Positions 38,217-53,542 of a stretch of 53,945 nucleotides of DNA are shown here, in pieces. The stretch is taken from assembly GCA_025350405.1 (NCBI GenBank), contig JANXXX010000171.1, positions 1 to 53,945 of the forward strand, in the 5' to 3' direction. How positions within the stretch are numbered: the first letter of the stretch is position 1; each line of letters opens with the position of its first letter. Below the pieces are notes generated by a model. It had not been told where the DNA came from. It saw only the letters and a program-made list of their open reading frames with translations, and did no database searches. Both the position numbers and the translations under genes were made by a program. This stretch comes from Gallionella sp. (GTDB taxonomy: Bacteria; Pseudomonadota; Gammaproteobacteria; Burkholderiales; Gallionellaceae).

Positions 38217-38436
38217 TTTGTTCTTAACCGGGGGTGCCAGGTTTTCTTGTTCGTCGGTGTGGCCTATATTCAATCCTGTGCTGGATCAACAAAATACTAT
38301 ATTCTGTGCGCAGGTTCATTACATCAGGAACGCACCTTCTCTTGCCGCACGATTTTCCGCTTATCCGCTAATAATTCGGTAAGATTGCATTTGCGCCGCA
38401 ATGGCTGCGCACGTTTCGTTCAAGCGATCAACTATT

Positions 38437-39603
38437 ATGAAAATTCACGAATACCAAGGTAAAGAAATCCTGCGCCAATTTGGTGTGCCGACTCCGCGCG
38501 GGATGGCATGCTTCAGTGTCGATGAAGCGGTGGCGGCAGCGCGGCAACTCGGTGGCACGGTGTGGGTGGTGAAGGCACAAATACATGCGGGCGGACGTGG
38601 CAAGGGCGGCGGGGTAAAGGTGGCGAAGTCTCTCGATGAGGTGCGCAATGCCGCGCAGCAGATATTGGGCATGCATCTGGTCACCCATCAAACCAGCAAA
38701 GAGGGCCAGATGGTGCGCCGTTTGCTGATTGAAGAAGGCGCGCAAATCGTCAAGGAATTTTATTTCGGCATGGTGATCGACCGCAGCAAACAGCGTGTGG
38801 CGTTGCTGGCGAGCAGTGAGGGCGGCATGGAGATCGAGGTGGTCGCCGCGCACTCCCCGGATAAAATACACAAGGTGTGGATCGATCCGGTGGTGGGCTT
38901 GCGCGATGCCGAAGTCGACAGCGTTGCACGCGACATCGGTATTCCCGCCGCGGCTTTGACACAAGCACGCGCTTGCTTGCAAGGCTTGTATCGCGCCTTC
39001 GTTGAGAAAGATGCGATGCTGGCCGAGATCAATCCGCTGGTGCTGACCGCCGATGGGCGTGTGCTGGCATTGGATGCAAAGTTTAACTTTGATAGCAACG
39101 CGCTGTACCGTCACCCTGAGATTGTTGCATATCGCGATCTGGATGAAGAGGATCCGGCGGAAGTCGAGGCATCGAAATTCGACCTCAGCTATATCTCGCT
39201 GGATGGCGACATCGGCTGCCTGGTGAATGGCGCAGGACTCGCGATGGCGACGATGGACATCATCAAGCTGTATGGTGGCAGTCCGGCAAACTTTCTCGAT
39301 GTGGGCGGCGGGGCGAGCAAGGAGAAAGTCACCGAAGCGTTCAAGCTGATGCTGCACAATCCTAATTTGCAAGCGATCCTCGTCAACATCTTTGGCGGCA
39401 TCATGAAGTGCGATGTGATCGCCGAAGGTGTAGTCGCGGCGGCACGCGAAGTGCATCTGAAAGTTCCTCTGGTGGTGCGACTGGAAGGCACCAATGTGGA
39501 ATTAGGCAAAAAGATTCTGGCTGAATCAGGCCTGCCGATTATTTCCGGGGATGACATGGCGGATGCGGCTGAAAAAGTGGTTGCCGCTGCGAGGGGAAAA
39601 TAA
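38437..39603 (+). CDS. sucC: succinyl-CoA synthetase (ADP-forming) beta subunit
   Basis: The 388-residue subunit has the ATP-grasp N-terminus [64 protein letters not shown] and a CoA-ligase C-terminal domain with [19 protein letters not shown] and [19 protein letters not shown]. It completes the TCA-cycle step succinyl-CoA to succinate with substrate-level phosphorylation. ATG at 38437 is chosen over an in-frame ATG at 38401. Its TAA overlaps the sucD start (TAATG). Confidence 0.97.
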
Positions 39604-40487
39604 TGTCCATCCTGATTGATAAGAACACCAGAGTAATGACGCAGGGCATGACCGGCAAGGTCGGACAATTTCACACCGTCAATTGCAAGGCATATGCGAA
39701 TGGGACGAATTGTTTCGTTGCCGGAGTGAATCCGAAAAAAGCGGGCGAAATGTTTGAAGGTATACCTGTGTATGCCTCGGTGCGCGATGCCAAAGCAGCA
39801 ACCGGAGCCACGGTGTCGGTGATCTATGTGCCGCCCTCGGGTGCGGCAGCGGCGATAGACGAAGCGGTCGAGGCCGATCTGGATCTGGTGATCTGCATCA
39901 CCGAAGGTATTCCGGTGCACGACATGCTGCGCACGCGTTACAAGATGCAGGGCAAACGTACCTTGCTGATTGGTCCGAATTGCCCTGGATTGATCACGCC
40001 GGACGAGATCAAGATCGGCATCATGCCGGGGCACATTCACCGCAAGGGGCGCATCGGCGTGGTGTCGCGCTCAGGTACGCTTACCTATGAGGCGGTCGGG
40101 CAGTTGACCGCGCTGGGTTTGGGGCAGTCCTCCTGCGTGGGCATAGGCGGCGATCCGATCAATGGCCTGAAGCATCTGGATGTGATGAGGCTGTTCAACG
40201 ATGACCCGGCAACCGATGCGGTGATCATGGTCGGCGAGATCGGCGGCAGCGACGAAGAGGAGTGCGCAAGTTGGATCAAGGATAACATGCGCAAACCGGT
40301 GGTCGGTTTTATCGCCGGTATCACCGCGCCGCCTGGCAAGCGCATGGGACACGCTGGTGCGATCATTTCCGGCGGGCAGGGCGGTGCCGAGGACAAGCTG
40401 GCGGTGATGGAGGAGTGCGGTATCCATATCACGCGCAATCCGGCCGAGATGGGGCGGGTGATGCAAAAAATATTGAAGGGTTCTTGA
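39603..40487 (+). CDS. sucD: succinyl-CoA synthetase alpha subunit
   Basis: The 294-residue subunit starts [19 protein letters not shown]. It has a Rossmann CoA-binding domain ([19 protein letters not shown]), the [14 protein letters not shown] motif, [32 protein letters not shown], and the phosphohistidine loop [21 protein letters not shown], with the active-site His in MGHAGA. It overlaps sucC by one base and the TerC gene by one base. Confidence 0.97.
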
Positions 40488-41296
40488 TGTTGGAAATGCT
40501 GGCTTCGACCCAATTCTGGGTCGATGTATTCAAGATCATCGTGATTGATTTGCTGCTGAGCGGCGATAACGCGGTGGTGATCGCGCTGGCTTGCCGCAAC
40601 CTGCCTTTAGAGCAACGCAAAAAAGGAATTTTATTTGGTGTGCTGGGTGCGATTATTTTACGCATCGTTCTGACTTTTTTTGCCGTGAACCTGTTATCGC
40701 TGCCCTATCTGAAATTGGTGGGTGCCTTGCTGTTGATCTGGATAGGCATCAAGCTGATTTTGCCCGAAGACGAACACAGTGGGAACAATATTCAGGCTGA
40801 AACACGGCTGTTCGGTGCGGTCAAGACCATCATCATCGCCGACTTCGTGATGAGTCTGGATAACGTGCTGGGTGTGGCGGCTGCGGCCAAGGGCAATGCG
40901 CTATTGCTGGTGTTCGGCTTGCTGATCAGTATTCCGCTGATCGCCTGGAGCAGCCAGTTGGTGCTGAAATTGATAGACCGATTTTCTTTTGTCGTATATG
41001 CCGGTGGCGCACTGCTGGGTTACGTGGCAGGCGAGATGCTGGTCAGCGAAGCGTTGTTCGCAAGCCTGGTCGAAACGCGTCACTATCTGCACTGGTTGAT
41101 CCCCGCGCTGTGCGCGTTGCTGGTGCTGGGATTGGGTGGCTGGCTGGCGATGCGCAGGGCTGTGGCAGGTGAGGTCATCAATCTGGTAGATGAACAGGTT
41201 TTAGCAGGGATGGGCGGCCAGTTTCCCGACTCGCACAATAAACCGCCAGAAAAAAAACGTAAAAGGAGTGATGATGAAAATACTGATTCCGGTTGA
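40487..41296 (+). CDS. TerC-family integral membrane protein (YjbE-type)
   Basis: The 269-residue protein has about seven membrane segments and the two TerC signatures: IDLLLSGDNAVVIALACRNL near residue 19 and ADFVMSLDNVLGVAAAAKGN near 120, with paired acidic/Asn residues that bind metal. TerC proteins export Mn2+ or Ca2+, supporting exoenzymes during secretion or relieving manganese excess. The start ATG shares a base with the sucD stop (TGATG), so it is coupled. A 60-residue C-terminal tail is soluble and Lys-rich. It overlaps the following stress-protein gene by about 23 bp. Confidence 0.88.
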   Translation: MLEMLASTQFWVDVFKIIVIDLLLSGDNAVVIALACRNLPLEQRKKGILFGVLGAIILRIVLTFFAVNLLSLPYLKLVGALLLIWIGIKLILPEDEHSGNNIQAETRLFGAVKTIIIADFVMSLDNVLGVAAAAKGNALLLVFGLLISIPLIAWSSQLVLKLIDRFSFVVYAGGALLGYVAGEMLVSEALFASLVETRHYLHWLIPALCALLVLGLGGWLAMRRAVAGEVINLVDEQVLAGMGGQFPDSHNKPPEKKRKRSDDENTDSG

Positions 41297-41699
41297 TGGT
41301 TCAGCCAATGCGCAACGTGCGATTGACTATGTGATCAACAATATCGCCATGCTGAAGGAGACGCCGCAACTATTGTTGCTTAACGTGCAGTGGAATGTGG
41401 CGGCGGGCAATGTCAAACTGTTCATCAATCAAGAAACGATCAACGACTATTATCGCGAACAAGGCATTGCCGCGCTGCAGTCGGCGCGCGCGGCGCTGGA
41501 CGCTGCAGCTTTGTCTTACCAATACCACATCAGCATCGGCACCCCGGCGGAAGCGATCGTGCAATACGCTAATGAGCAACAAGTGGATCAGATCGTGATG
41601 GGCAGGCTGGGGCAAGGTGGATTGCAATCATTACTGTTGGGATCGGTGGTGAACAAGGTGTTGCATCTGGCAAACTGCCCGGTATTGCTGGTTAAATAG
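41274..41699 (+). CDS. universal stress protein (UspA family)
   Basis: The 141-residue protein starts MKILIPVDGSANAQRAIDY and ends with the ATP-binding pattern GRLGQGGLQSLLLGSVVNKVLHLANCPVLLVK, which is G-2X-G-9X-G(S). It probably binds ATP. ATG at 41274 is preceded by AAGGAG in the terC tail; in-frame GTG at 41268 and ATG at 41271 are alternatives. It ends the suc-terC-usp run. Confidence 0.92.
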   Translation: MKILIPVDGSANAQRAIDYVINNIAMLKETPQLLLLNVQWNVAAGNVKLFINQETINDYYREQGIAALQSARAALDAAALSYQYHISIGTPAEAIVQYANEQQVDQIVMGRLGQGGLQSLLLGSVVNKVLHLANCPVLLVK

Positions 41700-41859: not shown

Positions 41860-44385
41860 ATGAATAAGTTGCTGTTTTGGCGGAAAGACTGGTTCATAAG
41901 TTTGCTGGTTGCAGGGGTGTTTTTTCTTGCTGCCAATAGCGACCTGATGCAGAGTCTGGAACGCAAGGCTTATGATTTGGGTGTTTTGGCTTCATCGCGA
42001 ACCCCGAGCGACAAAATTGCGGTGATCGCGATCGATGATCAAAGTATCGCCAATTTGGGACGCTGGCCATGGCCGCGTGAAATCCACGCGATGATGATCG
42101 ATATTCTGGCAGCCGGGAAAGCAAAGGTCATTGGCCATACAGCCTTGTTTTCCGAGCCACAGGTTGATGCCGGGTTGGCGTATCTGGAAAAATTGAGTGC
42201 GTTGCTGGTTAATTCTTCCCTGCAAAAATCTAATCCGGCAGAATGGCTGAAGTTGAATGAGGTATTGCAGGACGCGCGCTCACATCTTGATAATGACAAG
42301 AAGCTGGCCGAGAGTATTGCGCTGGCAAACAAGGTGCTGCTCGGCATGATAGTTGAGCTCGGCGAACCTCAGGGGAAGCCGGATGTTGCGCTGCCGGAAT
42401 TCGTGGCAAGGAACGGCTTGACCAACATCAAGGAAGGCGTGCCAGGGGCCAAGCCCTTAGCCACTACCAGCATTCTGGCGCCTATCGCGTTGCTTGGGGA
42501 GCGGGCAGCTGCCATTGGGCATCTCTCGATGTCGAAAGATGTGGATGGCGGTGTTCGCACAGAGCCGCTGGTGTTGAGCTACTACGATCAGTATTTTCCA
42601 TCGTTGGCGCTGATGTTGGTGGCCAAGAATCTGAATCTGGAGCCGAAAGATATCCAGGTTAGGTTGGGGGAATCCGTCAAGCTCGGGAATCTGACTGTTC
42701 CGACCGATTTTGCATCGCGCATGTATACTTATTTTTACAGCAGTCGGGATGGCAAGCCGGCGTTCCAGGTGGATTCGTTCTATGATGTTTTGTCCGGCAA
42801 AATTCCAGCTGAGAAATATCGAGACAAGATCGTTCTGATTGGTGCTACAGCGGCGGGAGTGGGCGAATTCCCCGCTACGCCTGTTTCGCCCGGAATGTCC
42901 CCCGTCCTGATTTTGGCGCACTCGGTATCGAGCATCCTGAAGCAGGATTTTTTCATCCTTCCCGAGTGGTCGTTTTGGCTGGAAAAAGGTGTTTTCATAT
43001 TGGTTTCGTTGTACCTGATATTGTTGCTGCCGCACATGCCTGCTGGAATTGGCGCTAGCGTGACTGCCGTGATTTTTGTGGCCTTGCTGGGGAGTCACTT
43101 CCTGTTGATGACGATGCAGGGAATTTGGGTGCAATTGATGTTGCCCGCCGTACTGTTGTTGGTGGGCCATGTGTTGCTGACGACCAAGCGCTTCCTGATG
43201 ACCGAGAAGGGCAAGCAAAGATCCGATGCTGAATCTGCGGAAAGCAATCGTATGCTCGGCTTGGCCTTTCAGGGCCAGGGGCAACTGGATATGGCCTTCG
43301 ACAAATTCCGCAAAGTGCCCATGGATGATAGTTTAATGGAGGTGTTGTACAACCTGGGACTGGATTTTGAGCGCAAGCGGCAATTCAACAAGGCTGAATC
43401 GGTGTTCAAATATATGGCTGCGTACAACACCAAATTCCGCGACTTGGATGCGCGCTTGGTGCAAACCAAAGCGATGTCTGAATCAGTGATGCTCGGTGGT
43501 TCTTCCGGTAAGAGTAATGCCAGCACGATAGTGCTGGACAAAGCGGGTGTATCCAAGCCGATGCTCGGACGTTATGAAATTGAGAAGGAGCTCGGCAAGG
43601 GTGCGATGGGGGTGGTGTATCTCGGCAAAGACCCGAAAATCGGACGTGTCGTGGCGATCAAGACCATGGCACTGGCGCAAGAGTTTGCGGCCGATGAACT
43701 GGCAGATGTAAAAACCCGCTTCTTCCGCGAAGCGGAGACTGCTGGCCGCCTGAACCACCCGAACATCGTGACCATGTATGATGCGGGCGAAGAGCATGAT
43801 CTGGCCTACATTGCGATGGAGTTCATCAAAGGTAAAGATCTGGTTGCCCATACCAAGTCCGGTAATTTACTGCCCTTGCCCAAGGTCTTGAGCATTTTTG
43901 CCCGTGTTGCCGATGCGCTGGATTATGCACACAAACAGAACGTGGTGCATCGCGACATCAAACCGGCCAACATCATGTACGACCCTGAGACTGACACGGC
44001 CAAGGTGACTGATTTTGGTATTGCGCGCATCACTGATTCGAGCAAAACAAAAACCGGCATGATATTGGGCACGCCCTCTTTTATGTCGCCGGAGCAGTTG
44101 GCCGGGAAGAAGATTGAAGGTGCCTCCGACCTGTTTTCCTTGGGCGTGAGTTTGTATCAAATGGCTTGTGGTAAGCTTCCTTTCGAAGGAGATTCAATGG
44201 CGCAATTAATGTTCCAGATCACCAATCAACCGCATCCCGATATTCTGAGCATCAGGGCAGATTTGCCGGCGTGTTTGGTGGCGATCATTAACCGATCATT
44301 GGCCAAGCGAGTTGAGGATCGCTATGCCAATGGTGCTGAAATGGCCGACGCATTGCGCCAGTGCGCCGCGAGCTTACAGGGGTAG
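41860..44385 (+). CDS. CHASE2-domain serine/threonine protein kinase
   Basis: An 841-residue receptor kinase with AGGGGGAGG before ATG 41860. Domain order: N-terminal membrane helix (residues 9-26), extracytoplasmic CHASE2 sensor (about 30-365, with KIAVIAIDDQSIANLGRWPWPR), three membrane helices (about 375-455), a short TPR-like linker (about 470-540), then a Hanks-type kinase from 572. The kinase is intact: Gly loop LGKGAMGVVYLG (G579), VVAIKTM lysine, HRDIKPAN with D699, DFG with D718, and activation segment GTPSFMSPEQ. It senses an unknown periplasmic signal and phosphorylates cytoplasmic Ser/Thr targets. A PP2C phosphatase gene follows 2 bp later and an FHA protein after that, a classical phospho-signalling set. 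It is the first gene of the 11.5-kb signalling cluster. Confidence 0.93.
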   Translation: MNKLLFWRKDWFISLLVAGVFFLAANSDLMQSLERKAYDLGVLASSRTPSDKIAVIAIDDQSIANLGRWPWPREIHAMMIDILAAGKAKVIGHTALFSEPQVDAGLAYLEKLSALLVNSSLQKSNPAEWLKLNEVLQDARSHLDNDKKLAESIALANKVLLGMIVELGEPQGKPDVALPEFVARNGLTNIKEGVPGAKPLATTSILAPIALLGERAAAIGHLSMSKDVDGGVRTEPLVLSYYDQYFPSLALMLVAKNLNLEPKDIQVRLGESVKLGNLTVPTDFASRMYTYFYSSRDGKPAFQVDSFYDVLSGKIPAEKYRDKIVLIGATAAGVGEFPATPVSPGMSPVLILAHSVSSILKQDFFILPEWSFWLEKGVFILVSLYLILLLPHMPAGIGASVTAVIFVALLGSHFLLMTMQGIWVQLMLPAVLLLVGHVLLTTKRFLMTEKGKQRSDAESAESNRMLGLAFQGQGQLDMAFDKFRKVPMDDSLMEVLYNLGLDFERKRQFNKAESVFKYMAAYNTKFRDLDARLVQTKAMSESVMLGGSSGKSNASTIVLDKAGVSKPMLGRYEIEKELGKGAMGVVYLGKDPKIGRVVAIKTMALAQEFAADELADVKTRFFREAETAGRLNHPNIVTMYDAGEEHDLAYIAMEFIKGKDLVAHTKSGNLLPLPKVLSIFARVADALDYAHKQNVVHRDIKPANIMYDPETDTAKVTDFGIARITDSSKTKTGMILGTPSFMSPEQLAGKKIEGASDLFSLGVSLYQMACGKLPFEGDSMAQLMFQITNQPHPDILSIRADLPACLVAIINRSLAKRVEDRYANGAEMADALRQCAASLQG

Positions 44386-44387
44386 AT

Positions 44388-45215
44388 ATGCAGATTAATG
44401 AGGCATTGGAAATATTCAGCCAGACCCACTCCGGCATGGTGCGCTCACACAATGAGGATAGTGTCGCGTGCGAGCCCGCCTGTGGCTTAGTGGTGTTGGC
44501 TGACGGCATGGGGGGCTATAATGCTGGCGAGGTGGCCAGCGGTATTGCTGTTTCGGTGCTGGTGACCGAAGTCAGTCAGGGTTTGCTGAGTGCCAGTCCG
44601 GTGGAACACGGAGGGGGAGACGGCGAGGAGTTGGGCGTGTTGCTGTTGCGCAACAATATTCAGAAGGCCAATGACTCTATTTTTCATGCTGCGCAAAGTC
44701 AGCCGCAGTATGCCGGGATGGGAACAACCATCGTCTCGGGATTGTTTTATGACAACCGTGTGGTGGTTGGGCATGTGGGCGATTCGCGCATGTACAGATT
44801 GCGCGGCGAAGCGTTGGAAACAATCACCCGGGATCATTCCCTGTTACAGGAGCAGATTGATAGGGGGATGATCAGTGTTGAGGATGCGCGCCTGTCCAAG
44901 AACAAAAATTTGGTGACGCGTGCAGTCGGTATTGATGCCGTAGTCGAGCCGGAAATCCATGTGCATAACGTGCTGGTAGGGGATATTTACCTGCTATGTT
45001 CGGATGGTTTGAATGACATGGTGGAGGATGACGATATTCAGTCCACGCTTTATGCGTTGCAGAACAATTTGCCGCTTGCGGCAAATCAGTTGATTCAGAT
45101 GGCGAACGATAATGGCGGCCGCGATAATGTTTCAGTGATACTGGTGAAGGTAAAGGGAAAGTTTGCCGTGCCGCAGGGTTGGCTGGCTAAATTGCTCGTT
45201 TGGTTTGAGAAATAA
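44388..45215 (+). CDS. PP2C-family Ser/Thr protein phosphatase
   Basis: The 275-residue phosphatase has all metal-binding signatures: VRSHNEDS with D24, ADGMGGYNAG with D39-G40, GTTIVSGLFYD, VGHVGDSRMYRLR, LVTRAVG, LLCSDGLNDMV and NGGRDNVSVILV. It matches Stp1/PrpC-type soluble phosphatases and should reverse the upstream kinase. ATG at 44388 lies 2 bp after the kinase stop; a longer in-frame start at 44361 would overlap it. An FHA gene follows after 20 bp. Confidence 0.95.
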   Translation: MQINEALEIFSQTHSGMVRSHNEDSVACEPACGLVVLADGMGGYNAGEVASGIAVSVLVTEVSQGLLSASPVEHGGGDGEELGVLLLRNNIQKANDSIFHAAQSQPQYAGMGTTIVSGLFYDNRVVVGHVGDSRMYRLRGEALETITRDHSLLQEQIDRGMISVEDARLSKNKNLVTRAVGIDAVVEPEIHVHNVLVGDIYLLCSDGLNDMVEDDDIQSTLYALQNNLPLAANQLIQMANDNGGRDNVSVILVKVKGKFAVPQGWLAKLLVWFEK

Positions 45216-45235
45216 TTAGTACGAGGATTACGACT

Positions 45236-46024
45236 ATGGCTGCAAAATTAATACTTAGCATGGATGGGGCGGTAATCAAAGAATACCCCCTTACCAAGGA
45301 GCGCATGACCATCGGCCGCAAGGAACACAATGACATCGCCATCGACAATTTGGCGGTGAGCGGCGAGCATGCTGCGATTGTTACCATCCTGCACGATTCC
45401 TTTCTCGAGGATCTGGATAGTACTAACGGGCTGGAAGTGAACGGGGCACCAACCAAAAAACATTTTCTGCAAAACAACGATGTGATCGGAATCGGCAAAT
45501 ACAAACTCAAATATATCAGTGATCAAATTACCCAGACTATCCCGGCCGATTTTGAAAAAACGATGATATTGCGCACACCGCTTAAGCAGCCGACCCCAGG
45601 CGCAAACAAGCCTACGGAACCCGGCTCGCCAGCTGGTATTAAACCGGCACAAGCAGAGGTGGAAACCGGTAAGTTTGATGCGCACAAGCCGCCCCCAGCC
45701 ACTCCGGCTCAAGCAGCTGCGCCAACGCATCCAGATGTTGCACAAGCCGGTTCTTCAAAGCAGGTTGCTGTGGTGCAAGTCCTGACTGGGCCAAATGCAG
45801 GCAAAGAACTTGAGTTGGTAAAAAACCTCACTACTTTAGGTAAGCCGGGCATGCAGGTGGCGGTACTGACCCGTCGTCCGCAAGGTTTTTTCATCACGCA
45901 TGTGGAGGGGAAAGATTTCCCGATGGTGAATGGTCAAGCAATAACGAATCAGGCCCATCAACTGAATGAACACGATGTAATTGAGCTGGCTGGGGTCAAG
46001 ATGGAATTCTATTTCAAGGGGTAG
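45236..46024 (+). CDS. FHA-domain protein with a second, degenerate FHA domain
   Basis: The 262-residue protein has an N-terminal FHA domain with the canonical phosphothreonine-binding residues G27-R28, S42, H45 and N64-G65 (TIGRKEHNDIAI, SGEHA, DSTNGLEVNG). A Pro/Ala/Thr-rich linker (about 110-165) contains TMILRTP, a threonine context plausible as a kinase substrate. The C-terminal 90 residues look like another FHA sandwich (VLTGPNAGKELELVKNLTTLGKPG, FPMVNGQAITNQAHQLNEHDVIEL) lacking the Arg/Ser/His set. It is probably the adaptor that reads the phosphorylation state set by the kinase and phosphatase encoded just upstream. Confidence 0.92.
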   Translation: MAAKLILSMDGAVIKEYPLTKERMTIGRKEHNDIAIDNLAVSGEHAAIVTILHDSFLEDLDSTNGLEVNGAPTKKHFLQNNDVIGIGKYKLKYISDQITQTIPADFEKTMILRTPLKQPTPGANKPTEPGSPAGIKPAQAEVETGKFDAHKPPPATPAQAAAPTHPDVAQAGSSKQVAVVQVLTGPNAGKELELVKNLTTLGKPGMQVAVLTRRPQGFFITHVEGKDFPMVNGQAITNQAHQLNEHDVIELAGVKMEFYFKG

Positions 46025-46033
46025 TGGTGTTCA

Positions 46034-46135
46034 GAGGCCAGAAGACAGGGGGCATAGGACAGGAGTGTTATGGCGCCGAGTCTTTAATGAACGTGCCAAG
46101 CCGAACACAAAAATCTGTCCTCTGTCCCTGGTTCC
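46034..46135. repeat. imperfect inverted repeat at the FHA-cyclase junction
   Basis: GGGGGCATAGGACAG (46048-46062) and CTGTCCTCTGTCCCT (46115-46129) are inverted relatives matching at 12 of 15 positions, about 50 bp apart. The composition is unlike the coding DNA around it. It separates the FHA and cyclase genes by about 130 bp and may be a remnant of a dispersed intergenic repeat or an mRNA hairpin. Confidence 0.4.
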
Positions 46136-46154
46136 CCATCCTCTGTTAAACGTC

Positions 46155-48377
46155 GTGAAAAAAAACGCAATCTTAATCGGACTGGGGTTGCTGATAGTCG
46201 TGTTTTTTGTCGGCAGCGCTGCCCGTCTTTACCGGCTGGATATTGTCGAACAGCTGTCTTCTATAATTCACGATTACCGATTGAAGTTGACCATGCCGCG
46301 CACTCTGGATGGCCGCATCGTTATTGTCGATATAGACGAAAAAAGTCTGAAGGAGGAAGGGCGCTGGCCATGGGGGCGTGACCGTATGGCCCTGTTGATG
46401 GACAAATTGTTCGATAAATATGGCGTTGCGGTAGTGGGCTTTGACGTGGTTTTTGCCGAGAAGGATGAGAGCTCAGGGCTAAAGGTGTTGCAGAAGCTCG
46501 GGCAAAATCAACTCAAGGGAGATATGTTGTTTCAATCGACACTCAACCAAATTCAGCCGCAACTTGAGTACGACAACATGTTTGCCAGCAAGATCAAAAA
46601 TCGCAATGTGGTGTTGGGTTATTATCTAACCAATCAAAAAGACCAGCGTGCTTCCGGGATGCTTCCCGATCCGACCTTCCCATCTGGCTCGTTCAAGGGA
46701 CGTCCGGTTGAGTTCACGTCCTGGAATGGCTACGGTGCCAATCTTCCCGAATTACAGCAAGCCGCCGCCAGTGCGGGGCATTTCAATCCTTTGGTGGACT
46801 TTGATGGCCGGGTACGCCGTGTGCCAGTGCTCGCAGAATACGGCGGGGCATATTATGAGTCCTTATCTGTTGCAATGGTGCGCGCCTTGCTGGGCCACCC
46901 CAAATTGTTACCCGGCTTTGCCGATGTCTCGATCGGCGGGTATGCCGGTTTGGAATGGCTGGAGTTGGACGTTGCCGGGAACAAGCTGAAAATTCCGGTG
47001 GACAGGGATGTGGCCACCTTTGTGCCGTACCGTGGCAAACAAGGAAGTTTTCATTATATTTCGGCTGCGGATGTGCTGCATGATCGGGTTGATCTCGCGC
47101 AACTGCAGGGCAAGATCATTCTGGTGGGTACCACTGCTCCGGGGTTGCTGGATATGCGTGCCACGCCTGTGGAGGAGGTTTACCCGGGTGTAGAAGTTCA
47201 CGCCAATATGATTTCCGGCATTCTCGACCAGAATTTGAAGGGGCAGCCCGCTTATATGCTGGGTGCAGAGGTGGTTTGGCTGCTGTTGACCGGCATAGCG
47301 TTGAGCTTTTTGTTGCTGTTATTCACCCCGGCCAAAGCGATTCTCGCTTCGGTTTTTACTGTCGTGACTACGACTGGGCTGAGTTTGGTTGTCTGGCAGT
47401 ACGGGAATGTATTAATGCCAGTGGCGAATACCCTGTTGATGATCGCTGCGCTATTTGCTTTGAATATGTCTTATGGCTACTTTATCGAGTCACGAACCAA
47501 GCGGCTGATTAGCGGATTATTCGGGCAATATGTGCCGAACGAACTGGTCAATGAAATGGCGAAACATCCGGAAAGCATTTCCATGGAAAGTGAAAGCCGT
47601 GAAATGACCATATTGTTTTCGGATGTGCGCGGTTTTGCCGCGATCTCGAAGGGCTTGGAGTCCCAAGAATTATCCCTGTTGATGAATGAGTTTTTGACTC
47701 CCTTGTCGCGCGTTATTTATAAACACCGCGGCATAATAGACAAGTATATTGGCGACTGCATCATGGCGTTTTGGGGTGCCCCGCTGCCGGACAAGGCTCA
47801 TGCCCGCAACGCCATACTGGCGGGTATTGAAATGTTGGTGACTTTGCAGGCGTTGCAGCCACGTTTTAAGGAACATGGTTGGCCGGAAATTCATATTGGT
47901 GTGGGCATCAATACCGGCAACGTCAGTGTTGGCAACATGGGTTCTGAAGTGCGCGTCGCCTACACAGTGATGGGCGATGAGGTGAATCTGGCCTCACGCC
48001 TGGAGGGTCTCACCAAGCAATATGGCGTTGGCCTCATTGTCGGAGAAAACACACGGAAACTCGTGACGGACTTTGTATATCGCGAACTTGACCACGTGCG
48101 GGTAAAAGGTAAAGATAGGCCCGTGGCGATTTACGAACCGCTAGCATTGGTTAGCGAGGCGAGTAAAGCACTTCAGGACGAAGTCAAATTGTTCCATGAG
48201 ATGCGCCGCCTGTATCGCAGGCAGGATTGGGAACAGGCGGAATTGCAGTTGATGAATTTGCAGCGCATGTCGCCGGATACTGCCCTGTATAGAATCTACA
48301 CGGAGCGGGTTGTTTACTTCCGTAAAAATCCACCGACTGCGGAGTGGGACGGTGTGTTCGTGTTTCAGGCCAAGTAA
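46155..48377 (+). CDS. CHASE2-domain class III adenylate cyclase
   Basis: About 740 residues if started at GTG 46155 (MKKNAILIGLG); the open frame extends upstream to 45981 through a repeat-like gap, so the start is inferred from the membrane helix. Domain order: membrane helix, CHASE2 sensor (about 30-375, with RIVIVDIDEKSLKEEGRWPWGRD), three membrane helices (about 385-455) and a class III cyclase domain (about 480-665). Catalytic residues are complete: metal Asps D490 (FSDVRGF) and D534 (DKYIGD), adenine-selecting K530 with T604 (AYTVMGD), and N611/R615 (NLASRLE). The Lys/Thr pair points to cAMP rather than cGMP. The C-terminal tail is TPR-like. It shares its sensor type with the kinase at the head of the cluster, and the next gene encodes a cyclic-nucleotide phosphodiesterase. 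Confidence 0.92.
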   Translation: MKKNAILIGLGLLIVVFFVGSAARLYRLDIVEQLSSIIHDYRLKLTMPRTLDGRIVIVDIDEKSLKEEGRWPWGRDRMALLMDKLFDKYGVAVVGFDVVFAEKDESSGLKVLQKLGQNQLKGDMLFQSTLNQIQPQLEYDNMFASKIKNRNVVLGYYLTNQKDQRASGMLPDPTFPSGSFKGRPVEFTSWNGYGANLPELQQAAASAGHFNPLVDFDGRVRRVPVLAEYGGAYYESLSVAMVRALLGHPKLLPGFADVSIGGYAGLEWLELDVAGNKLKIPVDRDVATFVPYRGKQGSFHYISAADVLHDRVDLAQLQGKIILVGTTAPGLLDMRATPVEEVYPGVEVHANMISGILDQNLKGQPAYMLGAEVVWLLLTGIALSFLLLLFTPAKAILASVFTVVTTTGLSLVVWQYGNVLMPVANTLLMIAALFALNMSYGYFIESRTKRLISGLFGQYVPNELVNEMAKHPESISMESESREMTILFSDVRGFAAISKGLESQELSLLMNEFLTPLSRVIYKHRGIIDKYIGDCIMAFWGAPLPDKAHARNAILAGIEMLVTLQALQPRFKEHGWPEIHIGVGINTGNVSVGNMGSEVRVAYTVMGDEVNLASRLEGLTKQYGVGLIVGENTRKLVTDFVYRELDHVRVKGKDRPVAIYEPLALVSEASKALQDEVKLFHEMRRLYRRQDWEQAELQLMNLQRMSPDTALYRIYTERVVYFRKNPPTAEWDGVFVFQAK

Positions 48378-48409
48378 CCAGATAAAATTTTCAGGAAACA
48401 CGGGACAAA

Positions 48410-49174
48410 ATGAAACTCAGGGTATTGGGATGCAGCGGTGGAATCGGTGGCAATCTGCGCACCACTTCGTTCCTGCTCGATCATGATGTGCTGATTGATG
48501 CCGGTACCGGCGTGGGCGAACTCAGTCTGATGGAACTTGCTATGATTGATCATGTTTTCGTTACCCACTCCCATCTCGATCATATCGCCAGTATTCCGTT
48601 CATGGTAGACAGCGTCGGGTTCATGCGCGACCGCCCATTGACTGTTTACGCTAGCGAGGAGACGCTGGATATTCTCAAGCAACATATTTTCAATTGGAAA
48701 ATATGGCCTGATTTCAGCGAGATTCCCAATGCCCAGCGACCATACATGCGTTACCAGTCGATAGCACTAGGCGAGACTGTTATCCTGAATGGGCGCAAGA
48801 TAACTTCCATTCCCGCCAACCATGTTGTTCCTGCGGTTGGCTACCATTTGGACAGTGGTAAGGCGAGCCTGGTATTCAGCGGGGATACCACCACTAATGA
48901 CGCATTGTGGAGGGTGGTCAACAGGATTGAGAATTTGCGTTACCTCATCATCGAGACAGCATTTTCCAACAGTGAAAAGGATTTGGCGGTACTTTCCAAG
49001 CATCTTTGTCCCAACATGCTTGCTATAGAGTTGGCAAAACTTAAGCGCGAGGCGGAAGTATTCATTACCCATCTTAAACCGGGTGAGCTGGAGTTGACCA
49101 TGCAGGAAATAGACGATTGTGTGCGCGGGCTGCATCCCCGGATGTTGTTGAACAATCAGGAATTCGAGCTTTAA
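48410..49174 (+). CDS. class II cyclic-nucleotide phosphodiesterase-like metallo-beta-lactamase-fold enzyme
   Basis: The 254-residue enzyme begins MKLRVLGCSGGIGGNLRTTS. The metal motif THSHLDH is at residues 52-58, then a middle helix, VPAVGYHLDSGKASLVFSGDTT with metal Asp, and VFITHLKPGEL near the C-terminus supplying the last His. This layout matches class II cAMP phosphodiesterases more closely than lactonases or RNases. It should hydrolyse cAMP in the cytoplasm. The cyclase gene ends 32 bp upstream, so the pair would make and destroy the same messenger. Substrate is inferred. Confidence 0.85.
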   Translation: MKLRVLGCSGGIGGNLRTTSFLLDHDVLIDAGTGVGELSLMELAMIDHVFVTHSHLDHIASIPFMVDSVGFMRDRPLTVYASEETLDILKQHIFNWKIWPDFSEIPNAQRPYMRYQSIALGETVILNGRKITSIPANHVVPAVGYHLDSGKASLVFSGDTTTNDALWRVVNRIENLRYLIIETAFSNSEKDLAVLSKHLCPNMLAIELAKLKREAEVFITHLKPGELELTMQEIDDCVRGLHPRMLLNNQEFEL

Positions 49175-49286
49175 GGGCGGGCGATGAGTTATATCTCCGA
49201 CATCAAATTTTGGTTGGATATAGACCAAGGTTGATGCCGGGGTTGGTACAGCAGCAGCCCAACAATGAGACTGGCGAGGGAGTGGA

Positions 49287-51695
49287 ATGAATACAGGAAT
49301 GGTGACCAATAGCGCAGCAAAAAATGCCGGTGATATGAGCCTCAGGCTCGAATTCACCAAAAATCTCAATCAAGTCAACAACAAGATACACGCCACCGGC
49401 AACGTAGATGAAATCATGCTGGAGGTCAGCAAGGATATCTGCGCGCTGTTCAATGCGGATCGGCTGACCATCTATGTCGTGGGTGAAGACAGCATTTCAC
49501 TGGTTTCCAAGGTCAAGACCGGACTCAACTCTTTCAAGGATCTCAAGTTACCCATCGCTGAGCAAAGCCTTGCCGGTTATGCGGCTATGCATAAGAAATT
49601 ACTTAACATCAAGGATGTTTACGATGAAAAGGAGTTGGCGCAGTACAGCACGCATCTGCGTTTTTTGCAGGAAGTAGACAAGCGCACTGGCTACCGCACC
49701 AAACAAATGCTGGTTGCGCCAGTTCTGGATGCAGTTAGCGGTGATCTGCTTGGCGTTATTCAAGTTATCAATAACAAGGCCGGTGTTCCTTTTGCGGCAA
49801 TGATCGAAGACGGCGTGCAGGAGCTGGCGCAGACCATGGCGGTGACATTGCGCCAGCATCAGCGTCAGCAAACCAGCACGGCCAAAACCAAGTATGACTA
49901 TCTGGTCGCTGACGCGGTACTTTCCGCTGCGGAATTCGAATTGGCGACGCGCACTGCACGCCGCAAGGGTATAGATGTTGAAGAAGTGCTTATCGACGAA
50001 TTTCAAGTCAGTATTCCGGCTCTGGGCAAAGCGCTTTCCAGTTTTTTTGGGGTTCCTTATGAAGCATACCGTGGGGATCGCCTCAAGCCTACCGAGATGT
50101 TGAAAAACCTGAGGCGTGAATATGTCGAAAGCAGCCACTGGATTCCAATTGAAGAGACCCAGGAGGGTTTGATGATATTGACCACCGATCCTGAGCGAAT
50201 CCAGGCTTCGCGGGTGGTCAATAATATTTTTTCCAAGAGTCGGCTGATCTACAAGGTTTGCTCACAACGCGAATTCAAGCAAACCCTGGATCTTTTCTAC
50301 GGCGGCGGTGCTGTTTCAGATGGCAGTGGTGTTGTAGCAGTCGATGAGTCATCCATGGATGATTTGTTGTCCAGCCTGGGAGGAGAAGAGGAAGAATTTT
50401 CCGGTGTTAGTCAAGAGGATGTCAGTGCCGCCGCTGATAATGAACTGGTCAAATTGGTCAATAAGGTCATCGTGGATGCTTACCGGATGGGCGCGTCGGA
50501 TATTCATATTGAACCAGGACCGGGCAAAGCCAAGACGCAGATTCGGGTGCGCAAAGACGGTTCATTGATGAACTATATCGAAGTACCGTCCACCTATCGC
50601 AATGCGCTGGTGACGCGCCTCAAAATCATGTGCGACCTGGATATTTCCGAGAAGCGCAAGCCGCAGGACGGAAAGATAAAATTCAAGAAATACGGTCCGC
50701 TGGATATCGAGTTGCGCGTGGCGACCATCCCCTCTCAGGGCGGCGTGGAAGATGTAGTGATGCGTATTCTGGCCTCCGGTGAACCGTTGCCGCTGGAGAA
50801 AATGGGTTTCTCCACGCGTAACGACGAACTGATCAGGAAGACGGTGACCAAGCCATATGGCTTGTTTTTCGTGTGCGGCCCGACTGGTTCCGGTAAGACC
50901 ACTACACTGCATTCCATTCTGAAATTTATCAATACACCTGACACCAAGATATGGACTGCCGAAGATCCGGTTGAAATTACCCAGAAGGGCTTGCGCCAAG
51001 TGCAGATCAACAAAAAGGCCGGGCTGGATTTTGCCACCATCATGCGCGCTTTTTTGCGTGCCGATCCGGACGTGATCATGGTCGGTGAAATGCGTGACAA
51101 GGAAACCGTGTCCATCGGTATCGAAGCTTCGCTGACAGGCCACTTGGTGTTTGCCACGTTGCATACCAACAGTGCGCCGGAATCCATCAATCGTTTGCTG
51201 GATATGGGTATGGATCCGTTCAATTTTGCTGATGCGTTGCTGGGAATATTGGCGCAACGATTGGGCAAGCGCCTGTGCAGCGATTGCAAGAAGCCTCATA
51301 TTGCGACCGCTGATGAAATAAAATCCATGCTCACTGAATTTAGCTCTGAATTGACCAATACCGAGACCTGGAAGAAAGACCCCTCCGCTGCGATGAAAAA
51401 TTTGTATGCCGAATGGGTGAAATTATTCGCCGACCCTAAGGGGCAATTTACGCTTTATACCCCGGTGGGTTGTGAGAAGTGTTCCGGTACCGGTTATCGT
51501 GGGCGCGTGGGTTTGCACGAATTGCTGATAGGCTCCGATCCTATCAAGAAGGCCATTCAAGAACATGCGCGCGTCGCCGAATTGTTCTCGATCGCGCTGG
51601 ATGAAGGGATGCGAACTTTGAAACAGGACGGCATGGAGAAAGTGTTGCAAGGCATTACCGATATGTTCCAGGTGCGCGCAGTTTGTATCAAGTAA
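49287..51695 (+). CDS. GAF-domain PilB/GspE-type secretion ATPase
   Basis: The 802-residue protein fuses an N-terminal GAF domain (about 15-190: EIMLEVSKDICALFNADRLTIYVV, LLGVIQVINNKAG) to a GspE/PilB-type ATPase. Residues 205-350 resemble the T2SSE N-domain (VEEVLIDEFQVSIPALGKALSSFFGVPYE), although the RxLGxxL c-di-GMP-binding pattern of MshEN domains is not obvious. The motor follows: Walker A GPTGSGKT at 531-538, the Asp box, Walker B MVGEMRDKETVSIGIEAS with Glu, the His box GHLVFATLHTNSA, and a zinc knuckle CSDCKKP...CEKCSGTGYRGR, in which the usual short CxxC spacing is widened by some 55 residues. It should power pilus or pseudopilus extension under control of a GAF ligand. Its neighbours are cyclic-nucleotide enzymes and a pilin gene. 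Alternative: a regulatory ATPase paralogue. Confidence 0.92.
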   Translation: MNTGMVTNSAAKNAGDMSLRLEFTKNLNQVNNKIHATGNVDEIMLEVSKDICALFNADRLTIYVVGEDSISLVSKVKTGLNSFKDLKLPIAEQSLAGYAAMHKKLLNIKDVYDEKELAQYSTHLRFLQEVDKRTGYRTKQMLVAPVLDAVSGDLLGVIQVINNKAGVPFAAMIEDGVQELAQTMAVTLRQHQRQQTSTAKTKYDYLVADAVLSAAEFELATRTARRKGIDVEEVLIDEFQVSIPALGKALSSFFGVPYEAYRGDRLKPTEMLKNLRREYVESSHWIPIEETQEGLMILTTDPERIQASRVVNNIFSKSRLIYKVCSQREFKQTLDLFYGGGAVSDGSGVVAVDESSMDDLLSSLGGEEEEFSGVSQEDVSAAADNELVKLVNKVIVDAYRMGASDIHIEPGPGKAKTQIRVRKDGSLMNYIEVPSTYRNALVTRLKIMCDLDISEKRKPQDGKIKFKKYGPLDIELRVATIPSQGGVEDVVMRILASGEPLPLEKMGFSTRNDELIRKTVTKPYGLFFVCGPTGSGKTTTLHSILKFINTPDTKIWTAEDPVEITQKGLRQVQINKKAGLDFATIMRAFLRADPDVIMVGEMRDKETVSIGIEASLTGHLVFATLHTNSAPESINRLLDMGMDPFNFADALLGILAQRLGKRLCSDCKKPHIATADEIKSMLTEFSSELTNTETWKKDPSAAMKNLYAEWVKLFADPKGQFTLYTPVGCEKCSGTGYRGRVGLHELLIGSDPIKKAIQEHARVAELFSIALDEGMRTLKQDGMEKVLQGITDMFQVRAVCIK

Positions 51696-51708
51696 TAGTT
51701 ATTAGCTG

Positions 51709-51725
51709 CTAGCCGTTAGGGCTAG
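51709..51725. other. short perfect hairpin in the ATPase-HD-GYP gap
   Basis: CTAGCC-GTTAG-GGCTAG forms a six-base stem with a five-base loop in the 65-bp gap. No T-run follows. The surrounding sequence (AGTTATTAGCTGCTAGCC) is low-complexity. Probably minor; could modulate mRNA stability. Confidence 0.3.
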
Positions 51726-51760
51726 TTAAATTCAATCCTAAATCGACTAACGATTGCCCC

Positions 51761-53389
51761 ATGCATTCTCCGGACGACCTTCTGCATCGACTCAAAGATC
51801 TCAATGAAATTGGTATCGCACTGTCCCAGCAGCGCAATCTCAACAGCCTGCTGGAAACCATTCTGGTCGCGGCAATGCGCATTACCCATGCCGATGCCGG
51901 CACGCTCTATTTGCACGAACAGGAACAGCGGGTGCTGTGCTTTGAAATTTTGCGCAACAAGACGCTGAATATGGCAATGGGTGGAACCAGTGGCACACCG
52001 ATTACGTTTTATCCGATTCAGCTTTACGATGCTGCTGGAAAACCCAATCACGCCATGGTGGTGAGCCACTCGGCACTTAGTGGTGAGACAGTGAATATTC
52101 CTGACGCTTATGTTGCGCAGGGATTTGATTTTTCCGGTACCAAAAAATTTGATGCTAAGACTGGTTATCGTTCCCAGTCCTTTCTGACCGTGCCGATGCG
52201 CAACCACGAGAATGAGGTCATCGGGGTGTTGCAATTGATCAACGCGCAAGACCAGGAAAGTGGCGCGATCATCCCGTTTTCTTGGGGCGATCAACAGTTA
52301 CTGGAATCGCTGGCTTCGCAGGCAGCTATTGCACTGACGAACCGTCATCTCATCGAGCAATTGGAAGAATTGTTCGAGGCCTTCATTCAACTGATTAATA
52401 CTGCTATTGACGATAAGTCGCCTTACACCGGCGGTCACTGCGCGCGCGTACCGGCACTCACTATGATGCTGGCTGAAGCGGTCAATCGCACCACGTTGGG
52501 GCCGCTCAAAGATTTTGTGATGACCGACAAGGACCGGCACGAATTAAAGATTGCCGGCTTGCTGCATGACTGCGGCAAAATCACCACTCCGGTGCATGTG
52601 GTGGATAAGGCGACCAAGCTGCAAACCCTGTTCGATAGAATTGGTATGTTGGACACGCGTTTCGAAGTGCTCAAGCGAGATGCTGAAATCGTCATGCTGC
52701 ACGAAATTGCGGCGGCGGGTACCGATATCCAGCGAGTGGAGGCTGCCCGCCAAAGCTTCGCGGCGCGAGCGACGCAGCTTGATGAGGACCGTGAATTTTT
52801 GCGCCACTGCAATGTCGGCAGCGAGGCCATGTCCGCCGAGGCACAGCAACGTGTGCGCCAGATCGCCACCTATCAGTGGCGCGATGTTGATGGAAAGACG
52901 GGTAACTTTCTCAGTGAAGATGAAGTTGAAAATCTCACCATACGCACCGGTACATTGACGGCTGCAGAGCGCGAAATCATCAACCACCACATTGATGTCA
53001 CGATCAAAATGCTGGAATCGCTGCCTTGGCCGAGACATCTGAAAAATGTCGCAGAATATGCGGGCGGGCATCACGAACGCATGGATGGCAAGGGCTATCC
53101 GCGCGGGCTGACGCGCGAACAGATGTCGGTACAAGCCAGGGTCATGGGCATTGCCGATATTTTCGAGGCGCTCACCGCCAAGGACAGGCCGTATAAAAAA
53201 GGCAAAACTCTCACCGAATCTTTGACCATCCTCGGCAAGTTCAAAATGGGCGGGCATATCGACCCGGACTTGTTCGATGTTTTCATCCGCGAAAAAGTCT
53301 ATCTCGACTATGCCAAACAATTTCTTGCGCCCGAGCAGATAGACGATGTGGATATAAGCAAAATTCCCGGGGTTGATTTGTGCTCGTAG
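51761..53389 (+). CDS. GAF-domain HD-GYP cyclic-di-GMP phosphodiesterase-type protein
   Basis: The 542-residue protein has an N-terminal GAF domain (about 15-195: LNSLLETILVAAMRITHADAGTLYLHE, IGVLQLINAQDQESGAI) and an HD-GYP catalytic domain. Signature residues are H269-D270 in LLHDCGK, HHERMDGKGYP at 437-447, and VMGIADIFEALTAKDRPYK. About 110 residues are inserted between the HD site and the distal His motifs, longer than in typical HD-GYP proteins. It should hydrolyse c-di-GMP to GMP under control of the GAF ligand. It lies 65 bp after the GAF-ATPase gene and shares its GAF type, suggesting one ligand controls both. The pilin gene is 211 bp downstream. Confidence 0.9.
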   Translation: MHSPDDLLHRLKDLNEIGIALSQQRNLNSLLETILVAAMRITHADAGTLYLHEQEQRVLCFEILRNKTLNMAMGGTSGTPITFYPIQLYDAAGKPNHAMVVSHSALSGETVNIPDAYVAQGFDFSGTKKFDAKTGYRSQSFLTVPMRNHENEVIGVLQLINAQDQESGAIIPFSWGDQQLLESLASQAAIALTNRHLIEQLEELFEAFIQLINTAIDDKSPYTGGHCARVPALTMMLAEAVNRTTLGPLKDFVMTDKDRHELKIAGLLHDCGKITTPVHVVDKATKLQTLFDRIGMLDTRFEVLKRDAEIVMLHEIAAAGTDIQRVEAARQSFAARATQLDEDREFLRHCNVGSEAMSAEAQQRVRQIATYQWRDVDGKTGNFLSEDEVENLTIRTGTLTAAEREIINHHIDVTIKMLESLPWPRHLKNVAEYAGGHHERMDGKGYPRGLTREQMSVQARVMGIADIFEALTAKDRPYKKGKTLTESLTILGKFKMGGHIDPDLFDVFIREKVYLDYAKQFLAPEQIDDVDISKIPGVDLCS

Positions 53390-53525: not shown

Positions 53526-53542
53526 TTGGCATGGCTATTGCT
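53526..53542 (+). promoter_or_regulatory. sigma-54 (-24/-12) promoter of the pilin gene
   Basis: TTGGCATGGCTATTGCT matches the sigma-54 consensus YTGGCACGRNNNTTGCW at every constrained position but one (T for C). GG is at 53528-53529 and GC at 53540-53541, 10 bp between the pairs. It lies 59 bp before the pilin ATG, giving a leader of about 45 nt. Confidence 0.88.

Follow-up and report, generated by a model that had tools for sequence, protein, structure and literature searches.

We have analysed a 53,945-nucleotide contig of Gallionella sp. (the window), numbered C35 in a draft genome of 2.84 Mb and 93.9% completeness, and describe in it a cluster of seven genes that probably encodes the motor and the control unit of a type IVa pilus (T4aP). 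The motor would be an ATPase with GAF, MshEN and T2SSE domains (GAF-PilB) that stands in for PilB, the canonical extension ATPase of the T4aP. An initial annotation of the window had named a Ser/Thr kinase, a phosphatase, an FHA protein, a cyclase, a phosphodiesterase, this ATPase and an HD-GYP protein; the Pfam matches agree with these families, and the seven genes are consecutive, all open and all on the plus strand (41860-53389). We infer, with good support from comparative sequence data, that GAF-PilB powers T4aP extension together with PilC, because the distribution of PilB and PilM, a scar at pilC and linkage to a pilin all point to it. The wiring of the control genes onto the motor is proposed with moderate support from the same type of data. 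The cluster had first been read as a signal integrator acting on a pilus or a pseudopilus. The pilus held, and the distribution of PilM and PilB narrows it to the type IVa; the pseudopilus was given up, since the genome has a separate GspE.

For the distribution, 250 genomes were sampled evenly across the order, and GAF-PilB, counted at E <= 1e-220, was present in 104. PilM, which we used as the marker of T4aP machinery, was present in 188 of the 250. GAF-PilB occurred in 102 of these 188 genomes and in 2 of the 62 genomes lacking PilM, so that 102 of the 104 genomes with GAF-PilB have PilM. The 188 PilM-positive genomes comprised 44 with both motors, 58 with GAF-PilB only, 82 with PilB only and 4 with neither, a complementarity that gave a Fisher p of 1.2e-15, uncorrected for relatedness. 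The 58 GAF-only genomes fall in 18 families, and three of the four genomes with neither motor (G194, G196 and G275, the fourth being G084) are fragmented or incomplete drafts. Among 61 near relatives, PilB exceeded its cut-off in none of 37 genomes of the genus and in 12 of the 24 others. In the window's genome, no match passes the PilB model despite the presence of PilM, and two ATPases of the PilT/PilU family are found.

The pilC loci provide the second line of evidence. In all eight control loci that have PilB, it adjoins PilC, and in four of these a CorC-type gene lies on the far side of PilB. The loci without PilB were taken from 18 hand-picked, mostly few-contig genomes (16 of the 58 GAF-only sample genomes and 2 of the genus), and all 18 kept PilC and showed no PilB within about 1.5 kb. 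In 12 of them, the first match on the upstream side of PilC was CorC, at a distance of roughly 100 to 350 bp. In the window's genome, GAF-PilB and pilC lie on separate contigs and its own pilC (L178, L275) is adjoined by CorC; the PilC protein is 71% identical to the PilC that stands beside PilB in a control genome. The simplest account of these loci would be that pilB was lost from a CorC-pilB-pilC order.

The third line of evidence is the pilin. Its co-occurrence with the cluster, expected in the initial annotation, was borne out: the 659,475 bp read downstream of the ATPase hold 81 prepilin-type N-termini on the coding strand, and the 928,031 bp on its upstream side hold none. In 50 of the 82 loci with room, the distance to a downstream prepilin is at most 7.2 kb. 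The sigma-54 site seen in the window also recurs: of the 53 loci with a pilin, 33 (the window's included) have a strict element ahead of it, with 0.0126 matches of the pattern expected per 330 nt. On these counts, we consider that many genomes, though not all, have the pilin as part of this neighbourhood.

Synteny was read in 102 of the 104 sample loci, G179 and G192 being left out because contig ends cut the ATPase. A flank filter (at least 8.9 kb upstream and 4 kb downstream) retained 76 loci and dropped 26, the window among them. The seven-gene order, whose absence in relatives would have spoken against a single system, was complete in 35 of the 76 loci and in 17 of 26 families, and is therefore conserved beyond chance; it was also complete in 42 of the best 80 named loci, taken without a flank filter. 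In the 76 loci, PP2C and FHA were each present in 59 and always together, the kinase and the cyclase each in 40, the phosphodiesterase in 66 and HD-GYP in 58. The kinase and the cyclase, which both have CHASE2 and had been proposed to read one periplasmic signal, behaved as a pair in gain and loss (both in 38 of the 76 loci, neither in 34, a single one in 4). Such pairing is expected if both serve one input, and is no proof of it. In a search of 398 genomes of the phylum, 22 genomes outside the order had GAF-MshEN-T2SSE relatives with 41-43% identity over nearly the whole length. The cluster is also present in L111, from a metagenome-assembled record titled Bordetella parapertussis, a name that may be a mislabel.

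Several observations weigh against the proposed motor and control unit. Nitrosomonas loci, that of Nitrosomonas europaea included, retain just the phosphodiesterase and the ATPase of the cluster, in the order TerC-Usp-phosphodiesterase-ATPase, and 5 of the 76 loci have none of the six partners; the control genes are therefore dispensable. In one of the 80 named loci (L130), the cyclase, phosphodiesterase and HD-GYP genes lie on the opposite strand, and the partners are likewise opposite in strand to the ATPase in both distant loci that have partners (L297, L298). The complete order is no commoner in genomes without PilB (20/42) than in those with it (15/34). Of 87 loci with room, only 43 have a pilin at 3.6 kb or less, and the idea that pilin linkage is stronger where PilB is missing was rejected (26/47 without PilB, 17/40 with PilB, p 0.28).

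The phosphorylation, cAMP and HD-GYP genes might instead be a module for general stress or envelope signalling whose place beside the pilus genes is incidental, with at most transcriptional effects on pili. We regard this as unlikely, and as the alternative to be taken most seriously. Usp and TerC lie upstream, the kinase and the cyclase are each missing in 36 of the 76 loci while the ATPase stays, and the extra gene of some relatives carries a rhodanese domain whose role is unclear. However, no break of order or strand was found in the 102 sample loci. Moreover, in two of the three loci read outside the order the ATPase adjoins a GAF-HD-GYP gene (L297, L298), in L297 together with a CHASE2 protein whose alignment runs along the cyclase and whose sole Pfam match is CHASE2; the third locus, L296, has neither.

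A different set of observations concerns the motor itself. The p value given above overstates the independence of the genomes because they share ancestry, and some PilB absences may be assembly gaps. In the 44 PilM-positive genomes that hold both motors, GAF-PilB is no plain replacement, and three genomes of the genus (G002, G015, G028), which are predicted to be without T4aP, have neither a full-length GAF-PilB nor PilB over the cut-off. Furthermore, TfpB matches occur in 42 of the 58 GAF-only genomes, including the window's own, where the match is over the cut-off. TfpB or another T2SSE paralog could be the main extension motor of the T4aP, and GAF-PilB would then either regulate extension or act as an accessory or priming motor. 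A published study describes TfpB of Acinetobacter baylyi as a second extension motor and notes that P. fluorescens A506 has TfpB and no PilB (PMC8213720). On the other hand, TfpB without both PilB and GAF-PilB was found in one of the 188 PilM-positive genomes, a 680-contig draft, and 16 of the 58 GAF-only genomes have no TfpB either. TfpB thus fails to explain the absence of PilB, and we hold a leading role for it to be improbable.

That the ATPase serves another pilus or secretion system (type II secretion or MSHA-like) instead of the T4aP is very improbable: it belongs to a shared T2SSE superfamily and the genome holds several such ATPases and T2SSF proteins, but these systems own their ATPases (C63 passes the GspE model with 712.2 bits, and the ATPases of C146, C14 and C49 each adjoin T2SSF), while GAF-PilB tracks PilM and neighbours a PilA-type pilin with a sigma-54 site. 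In the same genome, contig C139 (L179:3706-5050) has a T2SSE-family ATPase in two open stretches with a stop between them, which is probably a broken gene.

Returning to GAF-PilB as the extension motor, it would drive pilus extension instead of the canonical PilB by using an ordinary PilC platform encoded elsewhere, and the downstream pilin, under a sigma-54 promoter, would be its substrate. The catalytic motifs of the cluster, noted as intact in the window, are conserved across relatives in our alignments. For GAF-PilB, the Walker A, Asp box, Walker B, His box and paired cysteines are kept in 101 orthologs. It does not reach the cut-off of the PilB model TIGR02538 (479.6 bits, cut-off 675.65), the TfpB model NF053534 (377.2, cut-off 850) or the GspE model TIGR02533 (436.9, cut-off 630.25), and it showed no match to NF053729. 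In a tree of 34 rows, PilB forms a clade (100/100), as do the GAF ATPases of the order (100/99, on a long branch), which group with three distant GAF relatives (98/95). The GAF ATPases and PilB are joined only at 89/88 with a long-branch warning, and we therefore make no claim about the ancestry of GAF-PilB. L075 and L076, two T2SSE ATPases of the genus that are about 790 aa long, are placed next to the GAF ATPases in this tree. Their alignment with GAF-PilB begins only at residue 227 or 192, and their surrounding genes are unrelated. One locus (L079) was left out of an alignment, its ATPase containing a stop. The closest named GTDB matches to the window ATPase come from metagenome genomes of Gallionella and other Nitrosomonadales, at up to 91% identity.

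We also considered whether the motor itself reads a second messenger. The MshE/MshEN receptors of cyclic di-GMP (c-di-GMP) have an MshEN fold before the ATPase, as GAF-PilB does, and bind through two motifs of the form RLGxx...LxxxLxxQ (PMC5013675). In GAF-PilB this motif is lost; [RK]LG is present in 1 of 101 orthologs, and the sites mostly have K/R-Y/F-D and x-[IVL]-E instead. Reading of c-di-GMP by the MshEN of the motor was accordingly rejected. An NKFDE-type motif is a signature of GAF domains that bind cyclic AMP (cAMP). The lysine and D-E positions are not kept in the 101 orthologs, and therefore no cAMP binding through this motif is claimed for the GAF domain of the motor.

The first three genes may form a reversible phosphorylation relay made up of the CHASE2 kinase, the PP2C phosphatase and the FHA adaptor. 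The kinase, which by eye has a TPR-like linker, keeps HRDiKPAN, DFGIAR and the activation loop in 41 aligned sequences, and the phosphatase keeps ADGMGG, GDSR, SDGL and GGrDN in 61. The FHA protein had been described as dual. This stood for its first half, the sole part matched by the Pfam FHA model, in which all 39 aligned sequences (of 57 available) share G27-R28, S42, H45 and N64. It failed for the second half, which has G-K and no S..H pair in these sequences; scanned alone, it gave only a Yop-YscD_cpl match below the cut-off, and a second phosphopeptide-binding FHA was rejected. In the otherwise variable linker, D105, K108, T109, M110 and R113 are kept in at least 90% of the 39 sequences (DFEKTMILR in the window). 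GarA is an FHA protein that binds its own phosphorylated threonine, and by analogy T109 could be the phosphorylated residue bound by the FHA domain. The target of the relay would likely be the FHA protein itself and, through an FHA contact, the motor.

The CHASE2 cyclase and the class II phosphodiesterase would set the level of cAMP. LFSDvrgF, DKY.GD, YTVMGD and VNl.SRLE are kept in 46 aligned cyclase sequences. Class III adenylate cyclases have two metal-binding Asp, a Lys and a Thr or Asp for adenine, and an Asn-Arg pair. All of these residues are found, and we predict adenylate cyclase activity. THsHlDH of the phosphodiesterase is kept in 67 aligned sequences. Some relatives, a minority, have an eighth gene between the phosphodiesterase and the ATPase that codes for cyclic nucleotide-binding (cNMP-binding) and rhodanese domains; the window is without it, and its genome gave only weak matches to a cNMP-binding/rhodanese query. 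The query matched in this interval in 28 of the best 80 named loci (one a partial match), in 7 of 25 genus loci (one match of just 33 residues) and in 13 of the 102 sample loci, these three sets overlapping. Both domains were confirmed by Pfam in L041:8501-9592, and two loci (L093 of the named set, L044 of the genus set) have the gene without a detected phosphodiesterase. The encoded protein is a better candidate than the motor for the reader of cAMP, a role that it would have in these relatives; where present, its gene directly precedes that of the ATPase.

The GAF-HD-GYP protein keeps HDCGK and HHERMDGkGYP in 62 aligned sequences, that is, both the HD and the HHE..DG.GYP signatures, and is a candidate c-di-GMP phosphodiesterase. 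It would lower c-di-GMP with an effect elsewhere, probably not through the MshEN of the motor.

The features of the window that are discussed here are collected in the table.

Table. Features of the cluster and its surroundings (positions in the window; the starts of the seven cluster genes are inferred).
Feature	Position	Strand	Basis
sucC, sucD, TerC, Usp, upstream neighbours	38401..41699	+	Pfam
CHASE2 sensor and Ser/Thr protein kinase, 841 aa	41860..44385	+	Pfam CHASE2 3e-52, Pkinase 1.2e-53
PP2C-type protein phosphatase, 275 aa	44388..45215	+	Pfam PP2C_2 3.9e-10, PP2C 1e-7
FHA protein: one intact FHA (residues 25-87), variable linker, degenerate FHA-like second half	45236..46024	+	Pfam FHA 5.8e-18
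CHASE2 class III cyclase, start GTG	46155..48377	+	Pfam CHASE2 6e-57, Guanylate_cyc 5e-21
Class II-type cyclic-nucleotide phosphodiesterase, metallo-beta-lactamase fold	48410..49174	+	Pfam PDEase_II 1.7e-16, Lactamase_B_2 4.7e-18
GAF-MshEN-T2SSE ATPase (GAF-PilB), 802 aa	49287..51695	+	Pfam T2SSE 1.7e-113, MshEN 4e-9, GAF 1.4e-8
GAF-HD-GYP	51761..53389	+	Pfam HD_5 4e-42, GAF 1.4e-14
Sigma-54 type -24/-12 element TGGCATGGCTATTGCT	53527..53542	+	pattern match, ahead of prepilin
Type IV prepilin (PilA-like), cut by contig end	53601..53945	+	Pfam N_methyl 9e-11, Pilin 4.6e-10

In comparison with known systems, the PilB, TfpB and MshE motors, the CHASE2 enzymes, HD-GYP proteins and trios of kinase, PP2C and FHA are already known. 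GAF-PilB shares with PilB a T2SSE domain with all catalytic boxes and the company of PilM and PilC, but is complementary to it in distribution, has an extra N-terminal GAF, is not encoded beside pilC and forms a separate clade on a long branch. The described TfpB protein is not known to have a GAF domain. Like GAF-PilB, TfpB of A. baylyi is an extension-type ATPase distinct from PilB (PMC8213720); the two coexist in 73 of the 102 PilM-positive genomes with GAF-PilB. The threonine phosphorylation pathway of PpkA, PppA and Fha is part of type VI secretion, and it likewise clusters a kinase, a PP2C and an FHA protein with a cell-envelope machine, whereas the cluster here has a CHASE2 sensor, cAMP enzymes and a pilus motor in place of a type VI secretion system. 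Families of that system were absent among the 20 open reading frames of the window that were scanned, the rest of the genome not being searched for them. The Pil-Chp/CyaB/Vfr system of Pseudomonas aeruginosa also ties an adenylate cyclase and cAMP to the T4aP (PMC11656802). The cluster here differs from it in having no chemosensory gene among its seven, a cyclase with its own CHASE2, a class II phosphodiesterase and a kinase of the Ser/Thr type. A Ramlibacter genome is reported to have three PilB paralogs and one type IV pilus machinery (PMC3164672).

In the open-access literature, we found no description of this gene set or of a GAF-bearing stand-in for PilB in Betaproteobacteria. The extension motor regarded as standard for the T4aP is PilB, and a sensor-bearing stand-in, if true, would show that extension can be rewired. 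It would also offer an explanation for possible pili in many Betaproteobacteria that lack pilB, and the cluster would be a compact system joining phosphorylation and two second messengers at one mechanical output. We consider the case evenly balanced for the wider proposal that a separate type of motor with its own GAF sensor has taken the place of PilB in several families, across a large share of the Betaproteobacteria. This motor would be encoded together with a pilin and an entire circuit, comprising two CHASE2 inputs, reversible phosphorylation on Thr, an FHA protein, cAMP that is made, destroyed and read, and c-di-GMP hydrolysis.

With regard to layout and transcription, the gaps from the inferred starts are 2 bp between kinase and PP2C, 20 bp between PP2C and FHA, 130 bp between FHA and cyclase, 32 bp between cyclase and phosphodiesterase, 112 bp between phosphodiesterase and ATPase, 65 bp between ATPase and HD-GYP and 211 bp between HD-GYP and prepilin. 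In a consensus scan of the plus strand, no terminator-like site fell in any cluster gap, all five being inside genes, which would allow a single transcript. The terminator scan gave 15 terminator-like sites against 13.3 in shuffles, the sigma-70 promoter scan gave 4 promoter-like sites against 12.6 in shuffles, and the two gaps examined for inverted repeats had none. The sequence TCTGTCCTCTGTC in the gap between FHA and cyclase (46114-46126) occurs in 4 of 301 loci, the window's own stretch included, and is possibly a small dispersed repeat.

The upstream neighbours sucC, sucD, TerC and Usp recur upstream of the cluster in a number of relatives and probably lie outside the system. About 4 kb upstream of the cluster, a TPR-glycosyltransferase 41 (OGT-like) gene is found on the minus strand (35512-37770), and several relatives show weak OGT-like matches downstream of HD-GYP; a tie of this gene to pilin glycosylation is a guess.

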